Shown: one piece after another, positions 1,815-11,524 of the stretch
Position numbering within the stretch: the first letter of the stretch is position 1
How the letters are laid out: the number at the start of each line of letters is the position of its first letter
DNA from: Limnoraphis robusta CS-951
GTDB lineage: Bacteria; Cyanobacteriota; Cyanobacteriia; Cyanobacteriales; Microcoleaceae
Direction of reading: 5' to 3'
Assembly (NCBI RefSeq): GCF_000972705.2
Contig: NZ_LATL02000146.1
Coordinates: 1 to 17,547, forward strand
Length of the DNA: 17,547 bases
The notes under the pieces: generated by a model
Seen by the model: only the letters and a program-made list of their open reading frames with translations
Databases searched by the model: none
Told to the model about the DNA's origin: nothing
Made by a program: the position numbers and the translations under genes

Positions 1815-2990
1815 TCAAGCGGCAACAACATCGCTAAAGTCACCCGCGAGATAACGTAAAATCGAGTCAACGGTTTCTTGCTTCAGCCATCCCTTGTGAA
1901 CTGCCGTTTCTCCAAAACGCATTCCAGTTAGGTGTTGTTCGGCTAAGATCGTTTCAATTTGCTGATCATTAAGTAATTTAGCGGTTTTCAGGTAGTGACC
2001 GATAGGCTGTTTACGGGACTCCATTGAAATTTTGGGTAAGTGTTCAGCGAAAAAGTCAACGGTTTCCTGATCGACCAATCCCCAGTGGGATAAAATTTCT
2101 CCAAATCGCATATTGCTCTGTTCAGCCTGAGCATCCAAAACCATGCTGACTTGATGAGGAGTGATTAAACCTGCTTCTTGTAAGACTTGACCTAATAATG
2201 GCATCTGCCAAGTCGGTGTAGCAGAGGGTAAGAGAGAAAACTGAGGAGCGCGGTAAAGATTGAGACGTTGCTTGATCACTAACCACACGAAGGGAAGATC
2301 ATCAACTAAATACCGTTTCCAGAGTCGCTTGGGTTCACAGGAGAGCCGATAGAGCCATTCAATGCCGAGTTCGCTCATCCACTCTGGAGAACGGGGTTTT
2401 TCACCCGCTTCAAAGTCAATGGAAGCTCCGATGGCGAGGAATACTCTAATATTTTTGAGTTTGTGCTTGTGCTTAACGATCCATTTTTCTTGCTTGGGAG
2501 CGCCTAAGCCAACGGCCAGCACCGTTGCTCCCGAATGGTTAACGCGATCAATTATTCTTTGGCATTCTACTTCATCTTTCTCAAAACCAAAGGGCGGGGA
2601 GTAGGTATCAACAACGATTTCCCGTCCGACAATGCTATTGATTTTTTGTTGGGCGCGAGCTGCTACGCCTTCACCCGCACCTAGAAGGAAGATTCTGGTA
2701 TTTTCACAACTTCCATAATGTCTGTAAAAAGCAGGGAATAGATCAGAGCCGGAAATTTTCTCGCGAATCGGTTGACCCAGAAGGCGAGAAGCATAATATA
2801 AAACTTGACTATCGCAAACACGGTAATCTGAATTTTGATAAATTCGGTAGAATTCCTCGTCTTTTTGAAGATTAATCAGGTGGTCTACGTTGGGTGTGAA
2901 CACAACACCACCCTGTTGACCTAACTTCTGAAGAAGCTCCTCTTTAGAAAGATTATCAATATGGGCATTCAGAATTTTAACGGTGTTCAT
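1815..2990 (-). CDS. WecG/TagA/CpsF-family glycosyltransferase with C-terminal MshEN-like repeats
   Basis: A 391-residue protein in two parts. Residues 1-245 are a WecG/TagA/CpsF (GT26) glycosyltransferase: FTPNVDHL (31-38), GLGAPKQEKW (161-170), GASIDFEAG (188-196), then the end motif GIEWLYRLSCEPKRLWKRYL. This family transfers N-acetylmannosaminuronate or a similar sugar to a lipid-linked acceptor in surface-polysaccharide synthesis. Residues 265-381 are an added region of four 24-residue units beginning LLGQVL (265), RFGEIL (295), PIGHYL (329) and RFGETA (358), paired with 6- and 5-residue spacers. This follows the pattern of MshEN domains, known as c-di-GMP binders in GspE/MshE-type proteins. 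Start ATG at 2990; no strong ribosome-binding site. A promoter candidate lies at 3195-3272 and a terminator at 1722-1757. The sugar and acceptor cannot be told from sequence. Confidence 0.88.
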   Translation of the reverse strand: MNTVKILNAHIDNLSKEELLQKLGQQGGVVFTPNVDHLINLQKDEEFYRIYQNSDYRVCDSQVLYYASRLLGQPIREKISGSDLFPAFYRHYGSCENTRIFLLGAGEGVAARAQQKINSIVGREIVVDTYSPPFGFEKDEVECQRIIDRVNHSGATVLAVGLGAPKQEKWIVKHKHKLKNIRVFLAIGASIDFEAGEKPRSPEWMSELGIEWLYRLSCEPKRLWKRYLVDDLPFVWLVIKQRLNLYRAPQFSLLPSATPTWQMPLLGQVLQEAGLITPHQVSMVLDAQAEQSNMRFGEILSHWGLVDQETVDFFAEHLPKISMESRKQPIGHYLKTAKLLNDQQIETILAEQHLTGMRFGETAVHKGWLKQETVDSILRYLAGDFSDVVAA

Positions 2991-3194
2991 AGGTGAAATT
3001 ATTGTGAATTATTAAAGATAGATTGATGGCTCAGAATAACTCCGTCAATTAAGCAACCTAAACAGATCTATAAATCTTTTAACTTTTTTCAACATCTATC
3101 TTGAGTTATACACGTTAGACAGATATTTGAGAAAGCTTTTAGGTGCTAACTTTTCTGCAAGATTTCACTCAATTTTGGTGCTTTGCATAACTGA

Positions 3195-3272
3195 ATTATA
3201 AGATCATTTATTGTAAAGATACTAGGTGTTTTTGTAAAGTTCCGACCCTTTATCTGTAAAGTTTCGGTAAAG
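3195..3272 (-). promoter_or_regulatory. Response-regulator-type promoter: phased CTTTACA direct repeats plus TATAAT
   Basis: Read on the minus strand there are four direct repeats: CTTTACC starting at 3272, then CTTTACA starting at 3261, 3239 and 3218. Starts are 11, 22 and 21 nt apart, all on the same helix face. The last repeat is followed after 11 nt by a perfect TATAAT (3200-3195) and there is no -35 hexamer. This is the layout of PhoB/OmpR-class activated promoters, where the repeats replace the -35. The 11-nt period fits cyanobacterial SphR (Pho) boxes better than the 10-nt RpaB HLR1 element, though the repeat itself differs from the published Pho-box core. Start predicted near 3188, giving a leader of about 200 nt before the glycosyltransferase. 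Confidence 0.55.
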
Positions 3273-3635
3273 AGCGAGTGATCAATTAGACATTGCGAAG
3301 AAACCCATATCATTGGATCTCAGTAGGTGATTGACATCCAGTATACACTTGCATCCGTATATTCCTCCGATTTTACTGATCTTCACGGTTTTGATAGACA
3401 TCAGACATCCACCGCGATCGCTTTTGAGGGACACAGGGGTACTTCAACGGATGAAGATCCCTTGCATAAATTTGATGGCAATCCCAGATAAAACAGTACA
3501 CCCTCAAATTTATCACTTTTATAATGCTAACCCAAGCGAAGCCAAGATGTCCCACTTGCTCTGTGCCTTCTCGGTTAAACTTAAAGCATCTTCGGGTTTC
3601 CAGCCCACAACAACAGCCAACTGAGATGCCACTAC

Positions 3636-3644
3636 AGAGGAGAG
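3636..3644 (+). promoter_or_regulatory. Ribosome-binding site deciding the GTG start of the sigma-like gene
   Basis: AGAGGAGAG ends 8 nt before GTG at 3653. Neither of the in-frame ATGs at 3524 and 3626 has a purine-rich site in front of it, so this sequence favours the GTG start. Confidence 0.5.
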
Positions 3645-3652
3645 CGAGCGCT

Positions 3653-4351
3653 GTGGATCAACAAATCAAAGGCTTAATTGAGCAAGTCTACCAATTTGAA
3701 CGGACTAGCCCCCAAGCACGCAAAGCCCTAACTCGACTGTTAATTTTCGTCCAGCGACATCCGGATTTATACCGATCCTCCCATCCCGACTATTCGGAGG
3801 CTCTTAATCGTACCCTAGAATGGATGTGCAGAAATCTTCAAAGCTTTGAACCCCGTTCTGCTTCTATCGAACAAAGCCTGATTCGCTGGATTAATGGTTA
3901 TCTTAAATGGCGGGTGCGAGATTTGTATAGTCCAGACAGTTATTATCAACGTCATGTTAGCTTCGATATTCCGATTATTAACCGTGAGGGAGAATCAACA
4001 ACTTTGATGGATTTGTTTGTTGATCAAAAAACGCTCATCGGTATTGAAGGATGGATCGAAGGCATTCAGAAGGAAAGACGTGTCAGTATCGGGGATGCTG
4101 TTTGGGAATATATAGAACAAGATCCAGAAAATCTGCTCAAAAGTTGTTATCCCAAAAAACAACCCGAATGTCACTGTCAAATTTTAGCAAAACGATTACT
4201 TTTGCAACAACCGCCTCAGAAAATTTCTGAGATCGCCCGAGAATATAATATAAGCAATCAAACACTTTACTCTCACTGGAAGCGCAAATGTCTTCCGTTG
4301 TTACAAACAATTTCTGATCAAATTAGTCAACGCTTTGGACTTGAAAAATGA
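3653..4351 (+). CDS. Sigma-70-like transcription regulator, first gene of the CHAT cluster
   Basis: With the GTG start at 3653 the protein has 232 residues and begins MDQQIKGLIEQVYQFER. It resembles a cyanobacterial group of short sigma-70-like proteins: a helical N-terminal part with SPQARKALTRLL (19-30), a region-2-like segment with EALNRTLEWMCRNL and IRWINGYLKWRVRDL (about 49-91), a linker with VSFDIPIINREGE (about 103-115), and a C-terminal helix-turn-helix (about 190-217, KISEIAREYNISNQTLYSHW) resembling region 4. Region 3 is reduced, so whether it binds RNA polymerase as a true sigma factor is open. In-frame ATGs at 3524 (275 residues) and 3626 are alternative starts. The stop overlaps the DUF1822 start by 4 nt (ATGA at 4348-4351), implying translational coupling. 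As the only DNA-binding protein in the cluster it is the likely output of the system. Confidence 0.75.
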   Translation: MDQQIKGLIEQVYQFERTSPQARKALTRLLIFVQRHPDLYRSSHPDYSEALNRTLEWMCRNLQSFEPRSASIEQSLIRWINGYLKWRVRDLYSPDSYYQRHVSFDIPIINREGESTTLMDLFVDQKTLIGIEGWIEGIQKERRVSIGDAVWEYIEQDPENLLKSCYPKKQPECHCQILAKRLLLQQPPQKISEIAREYNISNQTLYSHWKRKCLPLLQTISDQISQRFGLEK

Positions 4352-5346
4352 ATCTAATTCTCCCTTTGACTTTACCTGTTCCCGTCAGCCAAGATGCTCA
4401 CCGTTTCGCCCGACAATTTGCTCTAGAACAAGCCACTCCGGAAAAAGGAAAACAAGTTTATCTCAATACATTAGCGGTTGTGGCGCTGCGAGACTATCTG
4501 CGGTGGCTGTCAATTTCTACAGCAATTGATCAAGGTGATTGTTGGCAGCCGGCGAAAAGAGCGATGTTTAATGTAGCTGACTTGGTTTTACCCCATTTAG
4601 GCAAACTGGAATGTCTTCCAATTTTACCCAACCAAAACTATTTAGAAATTCCGACAGAAGTCGCTGATCAGCGTTTAGGTTATATTGCCGTTCAGTTTAG
4701 CGAGGAACTCAAAGAGGTTGAATTATTAGGGTTTGTTTCAGCCCAAGAAATCAGCCATCCTCCAGAACCGATTCCACTCAGTAAGCTTCATTCCCTTGAT
4801 GATTTGATTGATCATCTTAATTGGCATCGCAAATGGACGAATTTGTGGCAAGATCTTTCTCAACCGGAATGGCAACCTCTCGAACTGTTACCCTCTCTGA
4901 ATACAAGAAGTTTAAAAGCAACAAGACAACCCATGAGAAATTTTTTAAAACTTGAGTCTTTAGAACAAAGCTTTATTCGAGGAAAGGTGATTGAATGGGA
5001 AAATAATAACACAAAGTTAGCCTTTTTGCTAAGGGTAAAAGTCAGTGAACAGTCAACCGAAGAAGTTCATGTTAACATCAGACTTGATTCCTTTAGTGAA
5101 GAGTCAACCGAAGAAGTTGACGTCAAAATGGGAGTTAATTCCCGTTACTCCTTGGGAGAAAACACTTATTTGCCTGCGGGCTTGGAGGTTAGTGTACTCG
5201 ATGAATCTGGAGTCGTTTGTATGCAGAATAAAGCCGGAGAAGCCGATCAGTGGATTGAATTAGAATTCGGGTGTCAACCGCAGGAAAAATTCAGTCTACA
5301 AATTCTTTTAAACGAAAATAAGATGATCGAAAATTTTCAGGTTTAA
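4348..5346 (+). CDS. DUF1822 family protein
   Basis: A 332-residue cytoplasmic protein with no signal peptide or membrane segment, recognised as DUF1822, a family essentially confined to cyanobacteria and of unknown function. Family-like segments include YLNTLAVVALRDYLRWL (38-54), GDCWQPAKRAMFNVADL (63-79), LGKLECLPI (84-92) and LGYIAVQF (110-117). The C-terminal part (about 275-332) has the beta-rich YLPAGLEVSVLDESG pattern and ends NENKMIENFQV. Residues 232-265 hold a 17-residue tandem duplication, which looks like a recent insertion. The gene overlaps the sigma-like gene by 4 nt and is followed after 22 nt by the first CHAT gene; a DUF1822 remnant also precedes the second CHAT gene. The repeated pairing suggests DUF1822 is a partner, adaptor or substrate of CHAT proteases. 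That is inference. Confidence 0.85.
   Translation: MNLILPLTLPVPVSQDAHRFARQFALEQATPEKGKQVYLNTLAVVALRDYLRWLSISTAIDQGDCWQPAKRAMFNVADLVLPHLGKLECLPILPNQNYLEIPTEVADQRLGYIAVQFSEELKEVELLGFVSAQEISHPPEPIPLSKLHSLDDLIDHLNWHRKWTNLWQDLSQPEWQPLELLPSLNTRSLKATRQPMRNFLKLESLEQSFIRGKVIEWENNNTKLAFLLRVKVSEQSTEEVHVNIRLDSFSEESTEEVDVKMGVNSRYSLGENTYLPAGLEVSVLDESGVVCMQNKAGEADQWIELEFGCQPQEKFSLQILLNENKMIENFQV
5041..5142 (+). repeat. 51-bp in-frame tandem duplication inside the DUF1822 gene
   Basis: Copies lie at 5041-5091 and 5092-5142, identical at 40 of 51 positions by hand alignment, with an identical 17-nt core AGTCAACCGAAGAAGTT. They encode VSEQSTEEVHVNIRLDS and FSEESTEEVDVKMGVNS. The length is a multiple of three, so the frame is kept. 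Confidence 0.85.
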
Positions 5347-5368
5347 ACAATTTAACAGGGGGAACTAT

Positions 5369-7990
5369 ATGACAGTTATCAAGGTTTTAGTTTTTTGGGA
5401 TCAGGGAGTCAATAAATTTCGAGTTCGGCTGGCTCAGAGTGATGGTCAAATTAATTCACTGGATGGTTATTTGCCTGCTTTACCGCCTCACTTAGAAGCC
5501 TCACAACCGCAACTAGAATCCTCAAATTTTCGTCAATCTGCTTATAGTCAATGGCAGTATTCTTATAGTCAGTTTGAAGCCGTTCGTAAAGTTTCAAGCC
5601 GGATTAATCCCAAAAAAATCCTCACGGATTCGGAAGCTAGAGAAATCACTTCTCAGCAAAAAGAATCAGTGATTAAGAGTTTAAATGAATGGCTAAACTG
5701 TCAGGATTCAAGTTGGCAACCGATTCGAGATGAATTAATTGCGGTTCTCAGCCACTTACAAAAAACTGGACAGGAAGCCCGTCTTTTTCTGGATACAGAA
5801 CATCCTCAACTGCGTCGTCTTCCTTGGCAAGAATGGGATTTATTTAAACATCGTTTTCCTCAAGCTGAAGTTTCAGTTCGTCTGCAAACAAGCCTAACAA
5901 AAATTCAACCAATTCGCCAAGACGCTCAAGTTAAAGTGTTGGCTGTTATTGGTAAAAGTGATGGCATTAATACTCAGTTTGATGAAGAAGTGATTAAAGC
6001 GTTAGAGAAAAAAAATGCACAAGTCACGGTTTTAAAGCAGCCCAAGCGGGAAGAACTTTCAAAAGCCTTGCGAGAAAAACAAGGTTATCATTTATTTGTT
6101 TTTTCGGGTCACAGTTCTTCCCGTGCCGATGGTACAATTGGTAGTATTGAATTAAATGACCATGACAAAGATTCCCTTGAAATTGAGGAGTTTAAAAGTG
6201 CGTTTATAGAAGCAATTAAACAAGGATTACAACTCGCTATTTTCAATTCTTGTGATGGTTTAGGACTCGCCCACCAACTGGCTGAGTTAGGTTTACCTCG
6301 AAGTATTGTGATGCGAGAACCTATTCCTGATGAAGTTGCGGTGAAGTTTTTGAAGTATTTTTTTGAAGAATTTACGAACAAAAAATCTCTTTTTCATTCT
6401 ATTCATCTTTCGAGAGAACGACTAATCGAGTATGGTTTTGAAAAGTCTTATCCCGGTGTGTCTTGGCTTCCTACGCTTTGTGTACAGGAAGTAACGCTTT
6501 CAACATCACTAACTTGGCAAGATTTTATTAAACAAAAACCACTCCATGAAGCTTGGGTAAAACCGTTGGGGGTAATAGCAAGTTTAGCAATTGTGACGAT
6601 TGTTGCTCAGACTTTATACAGAGTGATACGTCAACCTGATCTGATTCCGTTATCCCCTTCGCTAGAAAATAAAATGAGTCAAGGTGAAAAACTTCTAATT
6701 TCATCTAATACAAACCAGCATAAAGAAGCAGGAATTGTTGACTACAAGAATCAAGATTTTGGAGGCGCAATAGACAATTTTATTAAAGCACTGAATAAAA
6801 ATCCTAATGATCCGGAAACCGTCATTTATTTGAATAATGCGATCGCTCAACAAAAAGTCGTAACTAATACGGGAAAAAAAGTTGAAATTGCTGTGAGTGT
6901 ACCCATTAGCAAGGAGCCTAATGTTTCGCAAGAAATGTTACGGGGTGTCGCTCAAGCTCAAACTCAGATTAATTGTGGTTTACAGGAAGTTCAGCAGGCT
7001 ATTACACAACTGCAAACACAATTTAACTGCTCAAAAGGGATCAATGAAACCTTTTTACAGGTGACAATTGCTAATGATGAATATCAGCCTGAAGTTGCAG
7101 AAAAAGTCGCTCAAGCTTTTGCAAAAAATCAAAATATCTTAGCGGTAATTGGTCATTTTTCGAGTGATATGACACTAAGGGCTGGAGAGGTTTATAATCA
7201 ACAGAAGTTAGTGGCTATTTCTCCCACTAGCACTTCAGTGGAGTTGTCTAATATCAGTAGTCCTTATATTTTTCGGACGGTTCCAAATGATAGAGCAGCT
7301 GCTCAACAGTTATTTGAATATATGCGTAAACAACTCGCAGAATATGCACAAGTAGCGGTTGCTTATGTTCCCGGTAATGCCTATAGTGAATCCCTGTTCA
7401 GTGAGTTTGAGAAGTTACTTTCTTCTAATTCTTTTGTTCATAAGTGTGACTTATCGAGTAGTTTTTTTAGTGCAGGAGACTGTGTAGACAATGCCAAGAA
7501 GGAAGGCGCTCAAGTATTATTATTAATTCCAGCGACTGATGAAACGCTCACTAAAGTCATTGGAATTATCAACAATACCAATGGAGATTTAAAACTTTTA
7601 GGGGGAGATTCTGTCTATAACCCGAGAACTTTAAAAGATGCAGGTGAACAGGCTTTCAAGGGAAGTCTTGCAATAGCAGTTCCCTGGCATCGTAGCCCAT
7701 ACTCTGATTTTTCCCAACAAGCTCAAGACTTTTGGAAAGCCTCTATAAACTGGCGAACAGCAACTACATATGATGCCACTCAAGCTATCATTCAAGCCCT
7801 AAGTGAAAGCCGGGAAAATTTCAGTCGTCGTCAGCTTCATCAAAAACTTTCGAGTCCTAATTTTTTTGCTAAAGGAGCAGAAGGAAAGATTTATTTTGAT
7901 GAGTATGGTGATTTTCAATCGACTGAGAATGTGTTAGTAGAGGTTCAAGAGAGTGGAAAAGAAAACTATATCTTTGAAAAAATTGAATAA
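5369..7990 (+). CDS. Transmembrane CHAT protease with LIVBP-type periplasmic sensor domain
   Basis: An 873-residue protein. Residues 1-180 are a cyanobacterial CHAT-associated N-terminal region (LPWQEWDLF at 151-159). Residues about 188-380 are a CHAT caspase-like peptidase with the expected catalytic dyad: H248 in FSGHSS and C295 in FNSCDGLGLAHQL. One membrane segment follows at about 398-418, then a single TPR-like hairpin (about 454-480), then a type I periplasmic-binding domain (about 504-873) like the Leu/Ile/Val-binding and ABC amino-acid receptors. With no N-terminal signal peptide the membrane segment should act as a signal anchor, leaving the protease in the cytoplasm and the binding domain outside. 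Four cysteines (536, 554, 693, 705) all lie in the outer domain in two close pairs, fitting disulfides. Start ATG at 5369 has AGGGGGAA upstream. Probably a ligand-controlled protease; ligand and substrate unknown. Confidence 0.88.
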   Translation: MTVIKVLVFWDQGVNKFRVRLAQSDGQINSLDGYLPALPPHLEASQPQLESSNFRQSAYSQWQYSYSQFEAVRKVSSRINPKKILTDSEAREITSQQKESVIKSLNEWLNCQDSSWQPIRDELIAVLSHLQKTGQEARLFLDTEHPQLRRLPWQEWDLFKHRFPQAEVSVRLQTSLTKIQPIRQDAQVKVLAVIGKSDGINTQFDEEVIKALEKKNAQVTVLKQPKREELSKALREKQGYHLFVFSGHSSSRADGTIGSIELNDHDKDSLEIEEFKSAFIEAIKQGLQLAIFNSCDGLGLAHQLAELGLPRSIVMREPIPDEVAVKFLKYFFEEFTNKKSLFHSIHLSRERLIEYGFEKSYPGVSWLPTLCVQEVTLSTSLTWQDFIKQKPLHEAWVKPLGVIASLAIVTIVAQTLYRVIRQPDLIPLSPSLENKMSQGEKLLISSNTNQHKEAGIVDYKNQDFGGAIDNFIKALNKNPNDPETVIYLNNAIAQQKVVTNTGKKVEIAVSVPISKEPNVSQEMLRGVAQAQTQINCGLQEVQQAITQLQTQFNCSKGINETFLQVTIANDEYQPEVAEKVAQAFAKNQNILAVIGHFSSDMTLRAGEVYNQQKLVAISPTSTSVELSNISSPYIFRTVPNDRAAAQQLFEYMRKQLAEYAQVAVAYVPGNAYSESLFSEFEKLLSSNSFVHKCDLSSSFFSAGDCVDNAKKEGAQVLLLIPATDETLTKVIGIINNTNGDLKLLGGDSVYNPRTLKDAGEQAFKGSLAIAVPWHRSPYSDFSQQAQDFWKASINWRTATTYDATQAIIQALSESRENFSRRQLHQKLSSPNFFAKGAEGKIYFDEYGDFQSTENVLVEVQESGKENYIFEKIE

Positions 7991-8052
7991 AACACTTATT
8001 TTCCCTCAAGTTTAGAAGTTCACAGTACATTAATCAGTTTGGAGATGCTTAT

Positions 8053-8178
8053 ATGAATGTTACAACTAGAAAAACCAAGCCGTGGGTTGAGTTAGAATGG
8101 GATTGTCAACTCCAAAAAGGAATCTGTTTGCAAATGTTAGTAGATAAGGATAAAATCATTGAACCCTTTAGGATTTGA
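8053..8178 (+). pseudogene. Remnant of a second DUF1822 gene (C-terminal end only)
   Basis: A 41-codon frame starting ATG at 8053, with GGAG 8 nt upstream, ending TGA at 8176-8178. It aligns without gaps to the last residues of the full DUF1822 protein at 4348-5346: WVELEWDCQLQ against WIELEFGCQPQ, and DKDKIIEPFRI against NENKMIENFQV, about 14 identities in 31 positions. The frame is open back to the preceding CHAT gene, but no further DUF1822 similarity was visible there. It sits 4 nt before the second CHAT gene, the place a DUF1822 gene holds before the first. It may still be translated as a 41-residue peptide and help couple translation of the next gene. Confidence 0.75.
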
Positions 8179-8182
8179 TTGT

Positions 8183-10369
8183 ATGAATACTTCAATGACC
8201 CTGATCAAGCTGCAACTCCTCGAAAGTTCTGAACCCGGTTTTCATGTCAATCTAACAATGCTAAAAAGTCAGGAAGACTTTGATTCGATTAATGGCTTTC
8301 TTGCTGATCCACCTCCAGAACTCGAAACCTCATTAAAAAATTGGCAGGAATCCTATTTTCAACTGGATGGAGTTCGTAAAATTTATACGCGAATTACTCC
8401 GATTTCTATTGTTTGTTGTTCTAGTGCTGAACAAAGAAATGCCGTTAAATTTCATCTCAATCAATGGCTGAATAACAGTGATCGTCGGTGGCAGATTTTT
8501 CGAGAAGAACTCATTTATCTGTTAAGTAAACTCAGAAATTCAGGTGGAGAGACAGGTATTATACTTGATGTTAATCAGACTCAATTAAGTCGTTTACCTT
8601 GGCAAGAATGGCAGTTGCTTGAATCTCATTTTCCAGACACTGAAATAGCAATTCGTGTGAAAGGTTCAGACAAAATAAAATCTCCTCCAAAATCGGATAA
8701 AATTAAAATTTTAATGGTGATCGGAACCCATGAGGGTTTAAACACAAATCAAGACTTGAACATCATTCAAAGTTTAGATCAAAAAGAAGCAGAAGTTACA
8801 ATTTTAATTCAGCCAAATAAACGAGAGCTTTCAGATGTTTTTTTAAAAGAGGATAGTTACCATATTTTTGTTTTTTCCGGTCATAGTGGGAGCGATGAAC
8901 AGGGAAAAATTGGCTGGATACAGATTAATGATAGCCAGAATGGTTCGCTCAGTATTGATGAGTTTAAAAATAATTTTAGATTTTTGATTGAAAAGGGATT
9001 GCAGTTAGCGATTTTTAACTCTTGTGATGGTTTGGGACTGGCTCATCAATTAGCGCAGTTGAATTTACCCCGTTGTATTGTGATGCGAGAACCTGTTCCC
9101 GATGAAGTTGCTATCCGGTTTTTAGAATACTTTTTTGTAGAGTTTACGCAAAATAAATCTCTGTTTAGCTGTGTTAATCGAGCCAAAAAATCTTTAGAGA
9201 TGTTTGATTTTGACGATCAAAAATGTCCGGGAGCAATGTGGCTACCCACTTTGTGTATTCGGGAGTCTGCCTTATCAAAACCCCTAACTTGGCAAGGACT
9301 AAAGCAATCAGACAAATCTATAAATAAAGTTAATTTTACATCGATTAGAAAGCCATTATTAATGGGAAGTTTAGTGGTTTTTACAATCTTTTTATGGATT
9401 GTTTATGATAAAACAAGACCTAAACACCCAGCAGGTTGTCCTCAGAGTGCGGTTGTAACGAACCGAAAAACCAACAAAAAATCTAATCAATGTTTTGCTT
9501 ATGTTGCCAATGTACCTGAAGGAAAAATCTGGCATGGAGGGAGTACAACTTGGGCAACTATCCGCAAAGAAGTTAATCCTGAAATCAAAAAAATATTTCC
9601 ACAATTTGATATAACTTACAAAGATCATTTGACTTTACCTCCCGGTTCTAGAACGGGAATTGAAATGTTACTCCAAGGTCAATTAGTCTTTGCTGAATCT
9701 TCCAGACCCCTAAGAGATGAGGAACTACGAGAGGCAAGAAATCGCGGATTTCAACTGAAGCAAGTTCCTGTCGGAATTGATGCGATCGCAGTCATTGTTC
9801 ACCCGGATCTAGAAATTTCTGGCTTAAGTATTGAACAACTCAAAAAGATTTATTTAGGTCAAATTACGAACTGGAAAGATGTCGGAGGGCCTGACCTAAA
9901 AATCATTCCTTATTCACGTCCAAGTAGCGGTGGAACGACACAGTTTTTTCAAGAAAATATTCTCGGAGAGCAAAATTTTAGTAAAAATGTTGAATTCATT
10001 CCAACCACAACTCAAGCAATCCGACAAGTCACTCAAAATCAAGCAGGAATTTACTATGCTTCTGCACCGGAAGTTGTCCCTAGCTGTGGTGTCAAATCCA
10101 TTCCAATTCGTCAATCTACAGGAGAATGGATAGCTCCCTATAAAGGTTCACTGGTATCACCAGAAAACTGTCCAAAACAGCGCAATCAGCTTAATCTAGA
10201 AGCCTTTAGAACAAATGAATATCCTCTAACTCGTAAAGTATTTGTGATTATTAGACTTGATGATTCAGTTGATCAACAGGCGGGAGAAGCTTATGCTGAA
10301 TTATTGTTAACAGATGAAGGACAAAAACTGATTCAGAAAGCGGGTTTTATTCCGCTTAGTTCTTTTTAG
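8183..10369 (+). CDS. Transmembrane CHAT protease with PstS-type periplasmic sensor domain
   Basis: With the ATG at 8183 (AGGA about 9 nt upstream) the protein has 728 residues. The first CHAT protein's start, MTVIK, aligns with the next ATG at 8195 (MTLIK); a TTG at 8159 is less likely. Residues about 1-380 closely match the first CHAT protein: LPWQEW (139-144), CHAT dyad H234 (FSGHSG) and C281 (FNSCDGLGLAHQL), then REPVPDEVAIRFLEYFF. One membrane segment lies at about 392-409. The outer part (about 437-728) is a PstS-like type II solute-binding domain: GGSTTWATI (452-460), SSRPLRD (506-512), QITNWKDVGGPD (560-571) and SRPSSGGTTQFF (578-589), the last in the oxyanion-binding position of phosphate-binding proteins. 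Cysteines 419, 437, 635 and 663 lie outside. No ABC transporter genes are adjacent, so this domain probably senses rather than transports. Confidence 0.88.
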   Translation: MNTSMTLIKLQLLESSEPGFHVNLTMLKSQEDFDSINGFLADPPPELETSLKNWQESYFQLDGVRKIYTRITPISIVCCSSAEQRNAVKFHLNQWLNNSDRRWQIFREELIYLLSKLRNSGGETGIILDVNQTQLSRLPWQEWQLLESHFPDTEIAIRVKGSDKIKSPPKSDKIKILMVIGTHEGLNTNQDLNIIQSLDQKEAEVTILIQPNKRELSDVFLKEDSYHIFVFSGHSGSDEQGKIGWIQINDSQNGSLSIDEFKNNFRFLIEKGLQLAIFNSCDGLGLAHQLAQLNLPRCIVMREPVPDEVAIRFLEYFFVEFTQNKSLFSCVNRAKKSLEMFDFDDQKCPGAMWLPTLCIRESALSKPLTWQGLKQSDKSINKVNFTSIRKPLLMGSLVVFTIFLWIVYDKTRPKHPAGCPQSAVVTNRKTNKKSNQCFAYVANVPEGKIWHGGSTTWATIRKEVNPEIKKIFPQFDITYKDHLTLPPGSRTGIEMLLQGQLVFAESSRPLRDEELREARNRGFQLKQVPVGIDAIAVIVHPDLEISGLSIEQLKKIYLGQITNWKDVGGPDLKIIPYSRPSSGGTTQFFQENILGEQNFSKNVEFIPTTTQAIRQVTQNQAGIYYASAPEVVPSCGVKSIPIRQSTGEWIAPYKGSLVSPENCPKQRNQLNLEAFRTNEYPLTRKVFVIIRLDDSVDQQAGEAYAELLLTDEGQKLIQKAGFIPLSSF

Positions 10370-10427
10370 AGGTGAGTAGGCTTAGTCAAAACTTGGGAAG
10401 AACTCAAAAATACTGAATTTCCACAGG

Positions 10428-10706
10428 TTAACAGTACAATGTATCCTCATAAAAATCTTCACAGGAGATAGGAATTACATCTTTAAAACCCAAACTTTCG
10501 AGATAGGATTTCCAACCTGTGGGATGATCTTCAACGTGTAGATTTCCGAGTAAACAAGCAACATTGGCAATCCAAGGAAGGGTTGAAATCCGATATCCCT
10601 GCCAATTCACTGCTACGGATAACCAGTCGGGTAGGTTATTAATATCTAATTGAATTGAGGGTTCATAACTTGCCCTAAAATAGTAAATTTTGCCAATATT
10701 TGACAT
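10428..10706 (-). CDS. Small hypothetical protein, 92 residues
   Basis: ATG at 10706, TAA at 10428-10430. The composition looks like a real folded cytoplasmic protein: four tryptophans, a segment DLSxW-like in PDWLSVAVNWQGYRI, and no membrane segment or signal peptide. I do not recognise a family or function. No clear ribosome-binding site is visible. It lies 56 nt downstream of the SDR gene on the same strand and could be the last gene of that unit; it converges on the second CHAT gene with a 58-nt gap. Confidence 0.6.
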   Translation of the reverse strand: MSNIGKIYYFRASYEPSIQLDINNLPDWLSVAVNWQGYRISTLPWIANVACLLGNLHVEDHPTGWKSYLESLGFKDVIPISCEDFYEDTLYC

Positions 10707-10762
10707 TTTTAACTGATTGAACTCCCGTCAACATTCGTCAAATTAACATTATAAATGACAAG

Positions 10763-11524
10763 TTACCGAACGTAGGAAGCCCCGTTAATATCAATCGTGG
10801 TTCCAGTTGTATGGGGGGATAAACCTGATGCTAAAAACGCCACAACATAACCCACATCTTCGGGAGATGCCATTTCGCCCATAGGAATATCTTTGGTTAG
10901 ATTTGCTTCTCCATAGGTTTTAATTGCTGTATCAATAATCCGTTCAGTGCGAACAAAACCGGGAGCGATCGCATAGGCTAAAATATTATCTTTAGCGAAT
11001 CCTCTGGCTATGCTTCGAGTCAGAGAAATCACTCCTCCTTTGGAAGCGGCATAATGAATATAGTCGGGTGTATCGCCTCGAAAAGCGGCACGACTGGCAA
11101 TATTAATGATGATTCCGCCGCTTTGTTGCTGAAAATGATGAATTGCTTCTCGACACAAATCAGCCACAGCAATTAAGTTAACCTGAAGCGTTTGTTGCCA
11201 AGTTTGGTTCCAAGTTTCTAACTCATCTTTAATACTCGCGGGAATAATTATTCCGGCATTATTCACAATTACATCAATTTTTCCTTTCCATGAAATCGCC
11301 TGTTTCCATAACTCAATCGCTGCATTTTTCTCCGCTAAATCAGCTTGAACTAAATAACAAGCCTCTTCCCCTAAATCTTGTAAAATTTCTGTAGCTTTCT
11401 GCTGACTCTTTCCATAGTGCAGAATCACATCTGCCCCGGCTTGGTTTAATATTTTGACTGTAGCGGCGCCAATTCCCTGACTTCCGCCTGTTACCAAAAT
11501 CACTTTTCCGCTCAAATCAATCAT
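10763..11524 (-). CDS. SDR-family NAD(P)-dependent oxidoreductase (FabG-like)
   Basis: A 253-residue classical short-chain dehydrogenase/reductase, the usual length for the family. The Rossmann nucleotide-binding motif TGGSQGIG is at 12-19, NNAG at 88-91, and the catalytic set is S144 (NIASRAAF), Y158 and K162 (YAASK), with the conserved APG at 187-189. It should reduce a carbonyl or oxidise an alcohol with NAD(P)H; the substrate cannot be read from sequence. FabG itself is possible, but SDRs are numerous and the neighbours (a Ca2+ ATPase, a small unknown protein) are not fatty-acid genes. Cytoplasmic, no signal peptide. Start ATG at 11524; only a weak ribosome-binding site. Confidence 0.88.
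   Translation of the reverse strand: MIDLSGKVILVTGGSQGIGAATVKILNQAGADVILHYGKSQQKATEILQDLGEEACYLVQADLAEKNAAIELWKQAISWKGKIDVIVNNAGIIIPASIKDELETWNQTWQQTLQVNLIAVADLCREAIHHFQQQSGGIIINIASRAAFRGDTPDYIHYAASKGGVISLTRSIARGFAKDNILAYAIAPGFVRTERIIDTAIKTYGEANLTKDIPMGEMASPEDVGYVVAFLASGLSPHTTGTTIDINGASYVR

Follow-up and report, generated by a model that had tools for sequence, protein, structure and literature searches.

A tandem pair of receptor-bearing CHAT proteases next to sigma factor and DUF1822 genes in Limnoraphis robusta: a possible outside-in switch of gene expression

The EACC2-caspase proteins, outlined from computation by Kaur et al. (2021, eLife 10:e70394), combine, according to the section on this class, a novel alpha+beta domain N-terminal to a caspase with variable C-termini (CHASE2, PDZ, kinase, STAND, macro, trypsin-like, multi-TM and unnamed "small-molecule-binding domains"), and have as gene neighbors an ECF sigma factor and DUF1822, which is called a TPR protein there; a TRADD-N neighbor is assigned to only one of two groups. 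As the output, that section proposes that autopeptidase activity is switched on, and the sigma factor may form the final step. Among the EACC1-caspases (Kaur et al. 2020, eLife 9:e52696), one variant has a TM and then an extracellular PBP domain after the caspase; the part of that paper dealing with the class describes it as prevalent in actinobacteria and accompanied by a separate EACC1 membrane gene, and mentions neither sigma factors nor DUF1822. In the type III-E system, as described in the portion of PMC10028731 considered here, the CHAT protease Csx29, activated by RNA via Cas7-11, cuts Csx30, a protein that, according to the authors' model, keeps the ECF factor CASP-sigma inhibited; the cut falls in a loop downstream of, not within, the main linker, and no Csx30 residue is given as essential. 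HetF of Anabaena appears in the excerpts considered here as a membrane CHAT protein with one TM that can cleave the regulator PatU3.

The locus analyzed here is a variant of the EACC2-caspase class, insofar as that section describes it: a constant N-terminal region and a caspase fold are followed by a variable C-terminus with or without a TM, and ECF sigma factor and DUF1822 genes are found next to them, at positions 3524-5346 of the window (the whole analyzed stretch of 17,547 nucleotides from Limnoraphis robusta CS-951). The pair of LIVBP-like and PstS-like receptors present here is not named in that section. The two proteases, denoted A and B below, share with the EACC1-caspase variant the order of caspase, TM and (here, predicted) extracellular PBP domain, and with HetF the one-TM CHAT architecture, whereas HetF additionally contains TPRs. 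The likeness to the type III-E module consists of a CHAT protease, a two-domain (here, candidate) substrate with a linker, an ECF sigma factor and the adjacency of their genes; the difference is that the locus has a membrane receptor in place of RNA activation. Our literature search found no report of the paired LIVBP/PstS arrangement or of the DUF1822 duplication stump described below, nor of a non-TPR model of DUF1822, its linker arginine or a comparison with Craspase, and no experiment on this receptor-CHAT/sigma/DUF1822 system.

Four consecutive forward-strand genes form an operon-like block. The first (3524-4351) encodes a protein of 275 amino acids if the first ATG is used, with conservation setting in near the ATG at 3626 (241 amino acids), and its sigma fold supports assignment as a divergent ECF-like sigma factor; a profile comparison with sigma-70 proteins encoded ahead of other DUF1822 genes gives E = 0.00047 with a probability of only 33%, and the HTH region shows a weak match to Csx31 (E = 0.027). 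The DUF1822 gene (4348-5346; 332 amino acids; PF08852, E = 1.1e-68) overlaps the sigma gene by 4 nucleotides. Protein A (5369-7990; 873 amino acids) and protein B (8159-10369; 736 amino acids from a TTG, the likely start being the ATG at 8183 or 8195) are encoded by intact ORFs, and each consists of an N-terminal domain, a CHAT protease domain, one TM and a solute-binding domain. The closest named relatives of the window proteins include those from Lyngbya, Limnoraphis and Capilliphycus. A CHAT protease and an ECF-like sigma factor occur in one locus as in Craspase; in contrast, the window's 11 ORFs of 100 amino acids or more include, on inspection, no Cas7-11-like effector, and there is no repeat (CRISPR) array at 3400-10800. 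The same inspection, in which 6 of the 11 ORFs were scanned against Pfam, detects no ABC transporter gene, in agreement with an earlier sequence-only reading of this DNA. Two genes divergent from the operon, for a beta-lactamase-like protein (438-1610) and for a WecG-type glycosyltransferase extended at the C-terminus by a part weakly similar to DUF4388 (1815-2990), are syntenic in Lyngbya aestuarii.

A common CHAT half and two unrelated outer domains

A BLASTP comparison of residues 1-435 of A with B shows 43% identity (E = 8e-109). In steps of 50 residues, identity ranges from 39 to 64% as far as residue 400 and drops to 15-28% thereafter; it reaches 60-64% in the CHAT core (residues 251-350) and is 39-46% over the first 200 residues, so that the description of the two proteins in the sequence-only reading as matching almost motif for motif is apt for the CHAT core and generous for the N-terminal part. 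Both CHAT domains exceed the curated Pfam cut-offs (7.9e-14 in A, 8.3e-10 in B), and in front of each lies a conserved stretch of roughly 110 residues, recognized at the sequence level only. The catalytic dyad, His248 (codon 6110-6112) and Cys295 (6251-6253) in A, is invariant in all 242 family sequences (those of the window, A and B included, of the fetched loci and of the listed database matches, with near-copies kept). The histidine of B aligned with His248 is residue 242 (8882-8884), and its cysteine, residue 289 (9023-9025), is present in 93 of 93 PstS-type rows, B counted; thus, both dyads are intact, as had been proposed, and conserved among close homologs. The HetF model NF045509 (NCBIfam) matches the CHAT halves of A and B with E-values of 2.9e-10 and 2.2e-9, and an assignment of either protein to HetF is rejected, since their scores of 39.1 and 36.2 bits fall below the cut-off of 1200.

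A simple hydropathy scan predicts a single membrane segment in each protein, at residues 395-413 of A (6551-6607) and 399-417 of B (9353-9409). This segment follows the CHAT half instead of preceding it and therefore looks like an anchor rather than a cleavable signal peptide. The charges flanking it do not settle the orientation. Four cysteines are conserved in the outer half of 20 of 20 A-type rows, and two in 91 of 93 B-type rows (near-full-length sequences, A and B included), which fits an oxidizing, outer compartment. These observations support an outside location of the sensors, and A and B are accordingly predicted to be single-pass membrane proteins with the CHAT domain in the cytoplasm.

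The outer domain of A (residues 551-859; 7019-7945) is a type I, LIVBP-like solute-binding domain (Peripla_BP_6, PF13458, E = 6.3e-22, 79.1 bits against a cut-off of 31.7), and a sequence search identifies LIVBP proteins as its solved relatives (4mlc, 1.1e-16). That of B (residues 460-720; 9536-10318) is a type II, PstS-like domain (PBP_like_2, PF12849, E = 1.8e-30, 107.1 bits against a cut-off of 27), with PstS proteins as solved relatives (Sll0540, 9l8j, 4.5e-18); its match to TIGR02136 (4.4e-43, 147.6 bits) stays below the cut-off of 206.6. The solved relatives confirm the two folds named in the earlier reading. The best local alignment of the two outer halves scores 42; among 200 shuffles, 30 score at least as high, so that the similarity is at chance level. 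Positions S598/S599, T620-S621-T622 and D747 of A, which we take from LIVBP proteins to be the ligand site, are kept in 20 of 20 rows. The presumed oxyanion site of B, transferred from PstS, is kept in most of the 93 rows (S462 in 93, T463 in 92, S515 in 93, R587 in 89, G592 in 93, T593 in 90), with the exception of position 591, which is split between 47 Ser and 44 Gly and is Gly in B. Given that the site residues are mostly kept and yet B has Gly at the split position, phosphate and amino acids are guesses as to the ligands.

Recurring gene sets, exchanged modules and the DUF1822 protein

At a threshold of E = 1e-20, 77 of 292 cyanobacterial genomes contain a match to the profile of the CHAT half (with up to 6 candidates scored per genome). 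A census was compiled from 100 hand-picked regions (most of the stronger matches and a scatter of weaker ones), three further loci and the window, and comprises 106 CHAT genes, with one locus counted twice (L001 and L042; L numbers denote fetched loci). A DUF1822 gene lies upstream, on the same strand and within 4 kb, of 75 of the 106 (B being counted through the DUF1822 gene that precedes A). A recognized sigma gene of either class is found upstream of 51, always together with DUF1822, so that among the 106 there is no CHAT gene with a recognized upstream sigma gene and without DUF1822. In 24 of the 75 DUF1822-bearing loci, other same-strand ORFs or none, instead of a recognized sigma gene, lie upstream of DUF1822, and the remaining 31 CHAT genes, some of them at contig ends, have neither gene within 4 kb. 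The latter include all CHAT proteins of the macro (4 of 4), TPR (3 of 3) and short-TM (3 of 3) types, which must act otherwise.

The C-termini of the CHAT proteins fall into 17 similarity clusters, singletons counted, named by Pfam scans of 20 representatives. The larger groups are CHASE2 (46), nSTAND/WD40 (15) and the type I binding domain (9), followed by multi-TM (5), macro (4) and PstS-like (3) modules and by smaller groups with TPR, NB-ARC, PsbP-like, pentapeptide and trypsin-like modules. The relatives nearest to A differ from the census in this respect: among the best 120 of 3008 database matches, 118 are of the PstS or LIVBP type. In a tree of the CHAT half (113 rows left from 242 after removal of near-copies), the 17 labels need 32 changes. 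In a more careful tree of 44 rows, the group of type I receptors that includes A nests inside a PstS-type clade; a single clade of all type I (PBP1-type) rows is rejected (p-AU 1.7e-10), and one of the PstS-type rows is weakly rejected (p-AU 0.028). On this sequence evidence, the C-terminal modules have been exchanged repeatedly on a conserved CHAT half, as the trees require, with the qualification that modules would also be mixed if tandem CHAT halves undergo gene conversion, which may account for part of the tree signal. The sequence-only reading had taken the receptor domains to be exchangeable; the clusters and trees agree, and some ten other modules on the same CHAT half are found in cyanobacteria. 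One of the proteins in the census (L003:7857-9755) carries a TM and two protease folds, a CHAT half and a trypsin-like peptidase domain, with neither a sigma nor a DUF1822 gene upstream.

An AlphaFold2 model of the DUF1822 protein (pLDDT 81.6, pTM 0.64) comprises an N-terminal alpha/beta part, a linker (residues 185-205) with pLDDT below 50 and a C-terminal Ig-like beta-sandwich. Thus modeled, DUF1822 consists of two domains around a disordered linker and not of TPRs, in disagreement with the description of the EACC2-caspase neighbors (eLife 10:e70394, section on the class). A search of PDB chains with the DUF1822 profile gives no match at E up to 10, so that homology to Csx30, which this PDB set may not include, is not established. 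In the linker, position 187 (codon 4906-4908) is Arg in 60 of 64 sequences, in 61 of 74 in the census set (plus 6 Lys) and in 110 of 120 in the database set (plus 5 Lys), figures to be read with the overlap of the two latter sets with the first in mind and with the caution that, in a gappy linker, aligners may favor Arg-to-Arg matches. All 20 control loci chosen as CHAT-free (two turned out to have a CHAT ORF nearby) likewise have Arg187, which accordingly is not specific to CHAT neighborhoods.

By inspection, a longer sigma-like ORF adjoins DUF1822 in 19 of these 20 control loci, and all 19 of the longer sigma-like proteins compared with TIGR02937 (11 from the control set, 8 from CHAT loci) match it. 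This arrangement of a sigma-70 factor of about 390 amino acids with a DUF1822 protein of about 390 amino acids recurs mostly away from CHAT genes (L174-L192, e.g., L177:3917-6387). A caspase (Peptidase C14) gene is confirmed near DUF1822 in two control loci (L183 and L187), which hints that other caspase-fold proteases might take the place of CHAT. A DUF1822 match at E = 1e-10 or better, some of them weak, is found in 99 of the 292 cyanobacterial genomes.

A possible sigma factor release and its alternatives

Given that sigma factor and DUF1822 genes lie directly upstream of A, transcription is the likeliest output of the locus. By analogy with Csx29-Csx30-CASP-sigma and HetF-PatU3, we tentatively favor the view that receptor, protease and sigma factor work together in this locus as an operon of the EACC2-caspase type. 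Ligand binding, or the loss of ligand, would be relayed through the single helix to the CHAT half; the activated protease would cut DUF1822 in the disordered linker, probably at Arg187; and the cut would free or activate the ECF-like sigma factor of the same operon, with DUF1822 acting as its anti-sigma-like partner. Two sensors of unrelated fold would thereby feed one sigma/DUF1822 pair. A third of the DUF1822-bearing CHAT loci, however, have no recognized sigma gene, which speaks against cleavage of DUF1822 as the mechanism, as do the position of the Csx30 cut outside the main linker, the negative PDB search with DUF1822 and the presence of Arg187 in the control loci. The earlier interpretation, an anchored CHAT protease with exchangeable receptors, stands as far as the proteins themselves are concerned; it had overlooked the upstream sigma and DUF1822 genes and the DUF1822 stump between A and B.

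The main substrate might instead lie elsewhere, with A and B being ligand-controlled proteases comparable to HetF acting on PatU3, and the sigma/DUF1822 pair being mere regulators of the operon. According to the excerpts considered, HetF does combine a one-TM CHAT architecture with a regulatory substrate, and the 31 CHAT genes that lack an upstream DUF1822, together with the 24 that lack a recognized sigma gene, are compatible with such a role. Nevertheless, we consider it unlikely given the invariable presence of DUF1822 wherever a sigma gene is recognized upstream and the persistence of sigma/DUF1822 coupling without CHAT. Slightly less unlikely is a conflict or cell-suicide system, close to the stimulus-induced autopeptidase activation proposed by Kaur et al. 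in the section cited (eLife 10:e70394), in which danger would cause the caspase half to release itself or to degrade cell proteins, while sigma factor and DUF1822 would serve expression only. The nSTAND, NB-ARC, macro, pentapeptide and trypsin modules of relatives fit this scenario, as does the fusion of NNH2-NACHT to DUF1822 in one locus; on the other hand, nutrient-type solute-binding sensors combined with a sigma factor would better suit a graded response, the A/B pair is retained in several genomes, and a PADLOC search with the four operon proteins, which covers described systems only, yields a single weak match (BovA, E = 0.0086, 12.7 bits). It is highly improbable that the outer domains, ordinary solute-binding domains by sequence as they are, are constitutive scaffolds or scavengers for a distant ABC permease with an incidental CHAT fusion: the fusion recurs in many cyanobacterial proteins (the 118 of the best 120 matches), other modules replace the outer domain on the same CHAT half, and no ABC gene is seen within the window.

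Caspase-fold proteases are common in filamentous cyanobacteria, and to our knowledge few of them have a known substrate. The four adjacent genes offer a testable candidate substrate (DUF1822), a candidate cut site, a sigma factor output and two inputs with recognizable ligand classes. Should sigma factor release be correct, the set would be an outside-in switch for gene expression, DUF1822, with matches (some weak) in about a third of the genomes searched, would gain a function, and CHAT-controlled sigma release would be a general design rather than a CRISPR-specific one. A broader and rather doubtful extension is a large, modular cyanobacterial class of one-component signaling by proteolysis, in which any sensor may be attached to a membrane-bound or cytoplasmic CHAT protease that sets free a dedicated sigma factor, DUF1822 would be a widespread protease-sensitive anti-sigma factor cut at Arg187 in the disordered linker, and Craspase would be one RNA-sensing instance.

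Origin of the tandem pair

The DNA between the two CHAT genes retains part of a second DUF1822 copy, a stump at 7989-8178. A 41-amino-acid ORF at 8053-8178 corresponds to the C-terminus of DUF1822 (profile positions 268-308 of 308, E = 7e-6), and in a two-sequence comparison the DNA at 5159-5278 is 67% identical to that at 7989-8110 (E = 4.7e-6), the homology starting within the stop codon of A. The position of this stump points to a tandem duplication, and such an origin of the A/B pair is supported at the level of DNA and profile similarity; either no more than the end of DUF1822 was included in the duplicated unit, or a complete copy later disappeared.

In 6 of 12 family-level loci (L161-L165 and L170), a type I CHAT gene is followed by PstS-type CHAT genes or remnants, and sigma factor and DUF1822 come first in the five of these that reach far enough upstream. 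The type I gene of L165 is divided between two ORFs, and L163 has a possible, weakly similar 21-residue DUF1822 stump at the equivalent place (E = 0.003-0.007). Lyngbya aestuarii has sigma factor, DUF1822 and A without B, between the same flanking genes as in the window; in place of B, this genome (L001:10746-15751) encodes a protein with solute-binding and vWA domains and a fusion of an M48 peptidase with a solute-binding domain. An ORF with a similar N-terminus is present in L163 (354-2051).

Two of the fetched loci have further peculiarities. In L171, a single ORF of 1030 amino acids (1887-4979) combines an NNH2-NACHT NTPase, a 27-residue sigma remnant and a full DUF1822, and precedes a PstS-type CHAT gene. 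In L161 (7213-8687), the type I receptor gene is followed downstream by 300-nucleotide copies of its 3' end with 97-100% identity, accompanied by short receptor-fragment ORFs; similar fragments of 65-78 amino acids occur in L162, L163 and L172. The repeats of L161 could represent receptor-diversifying cassettes or simple tandem duplication.
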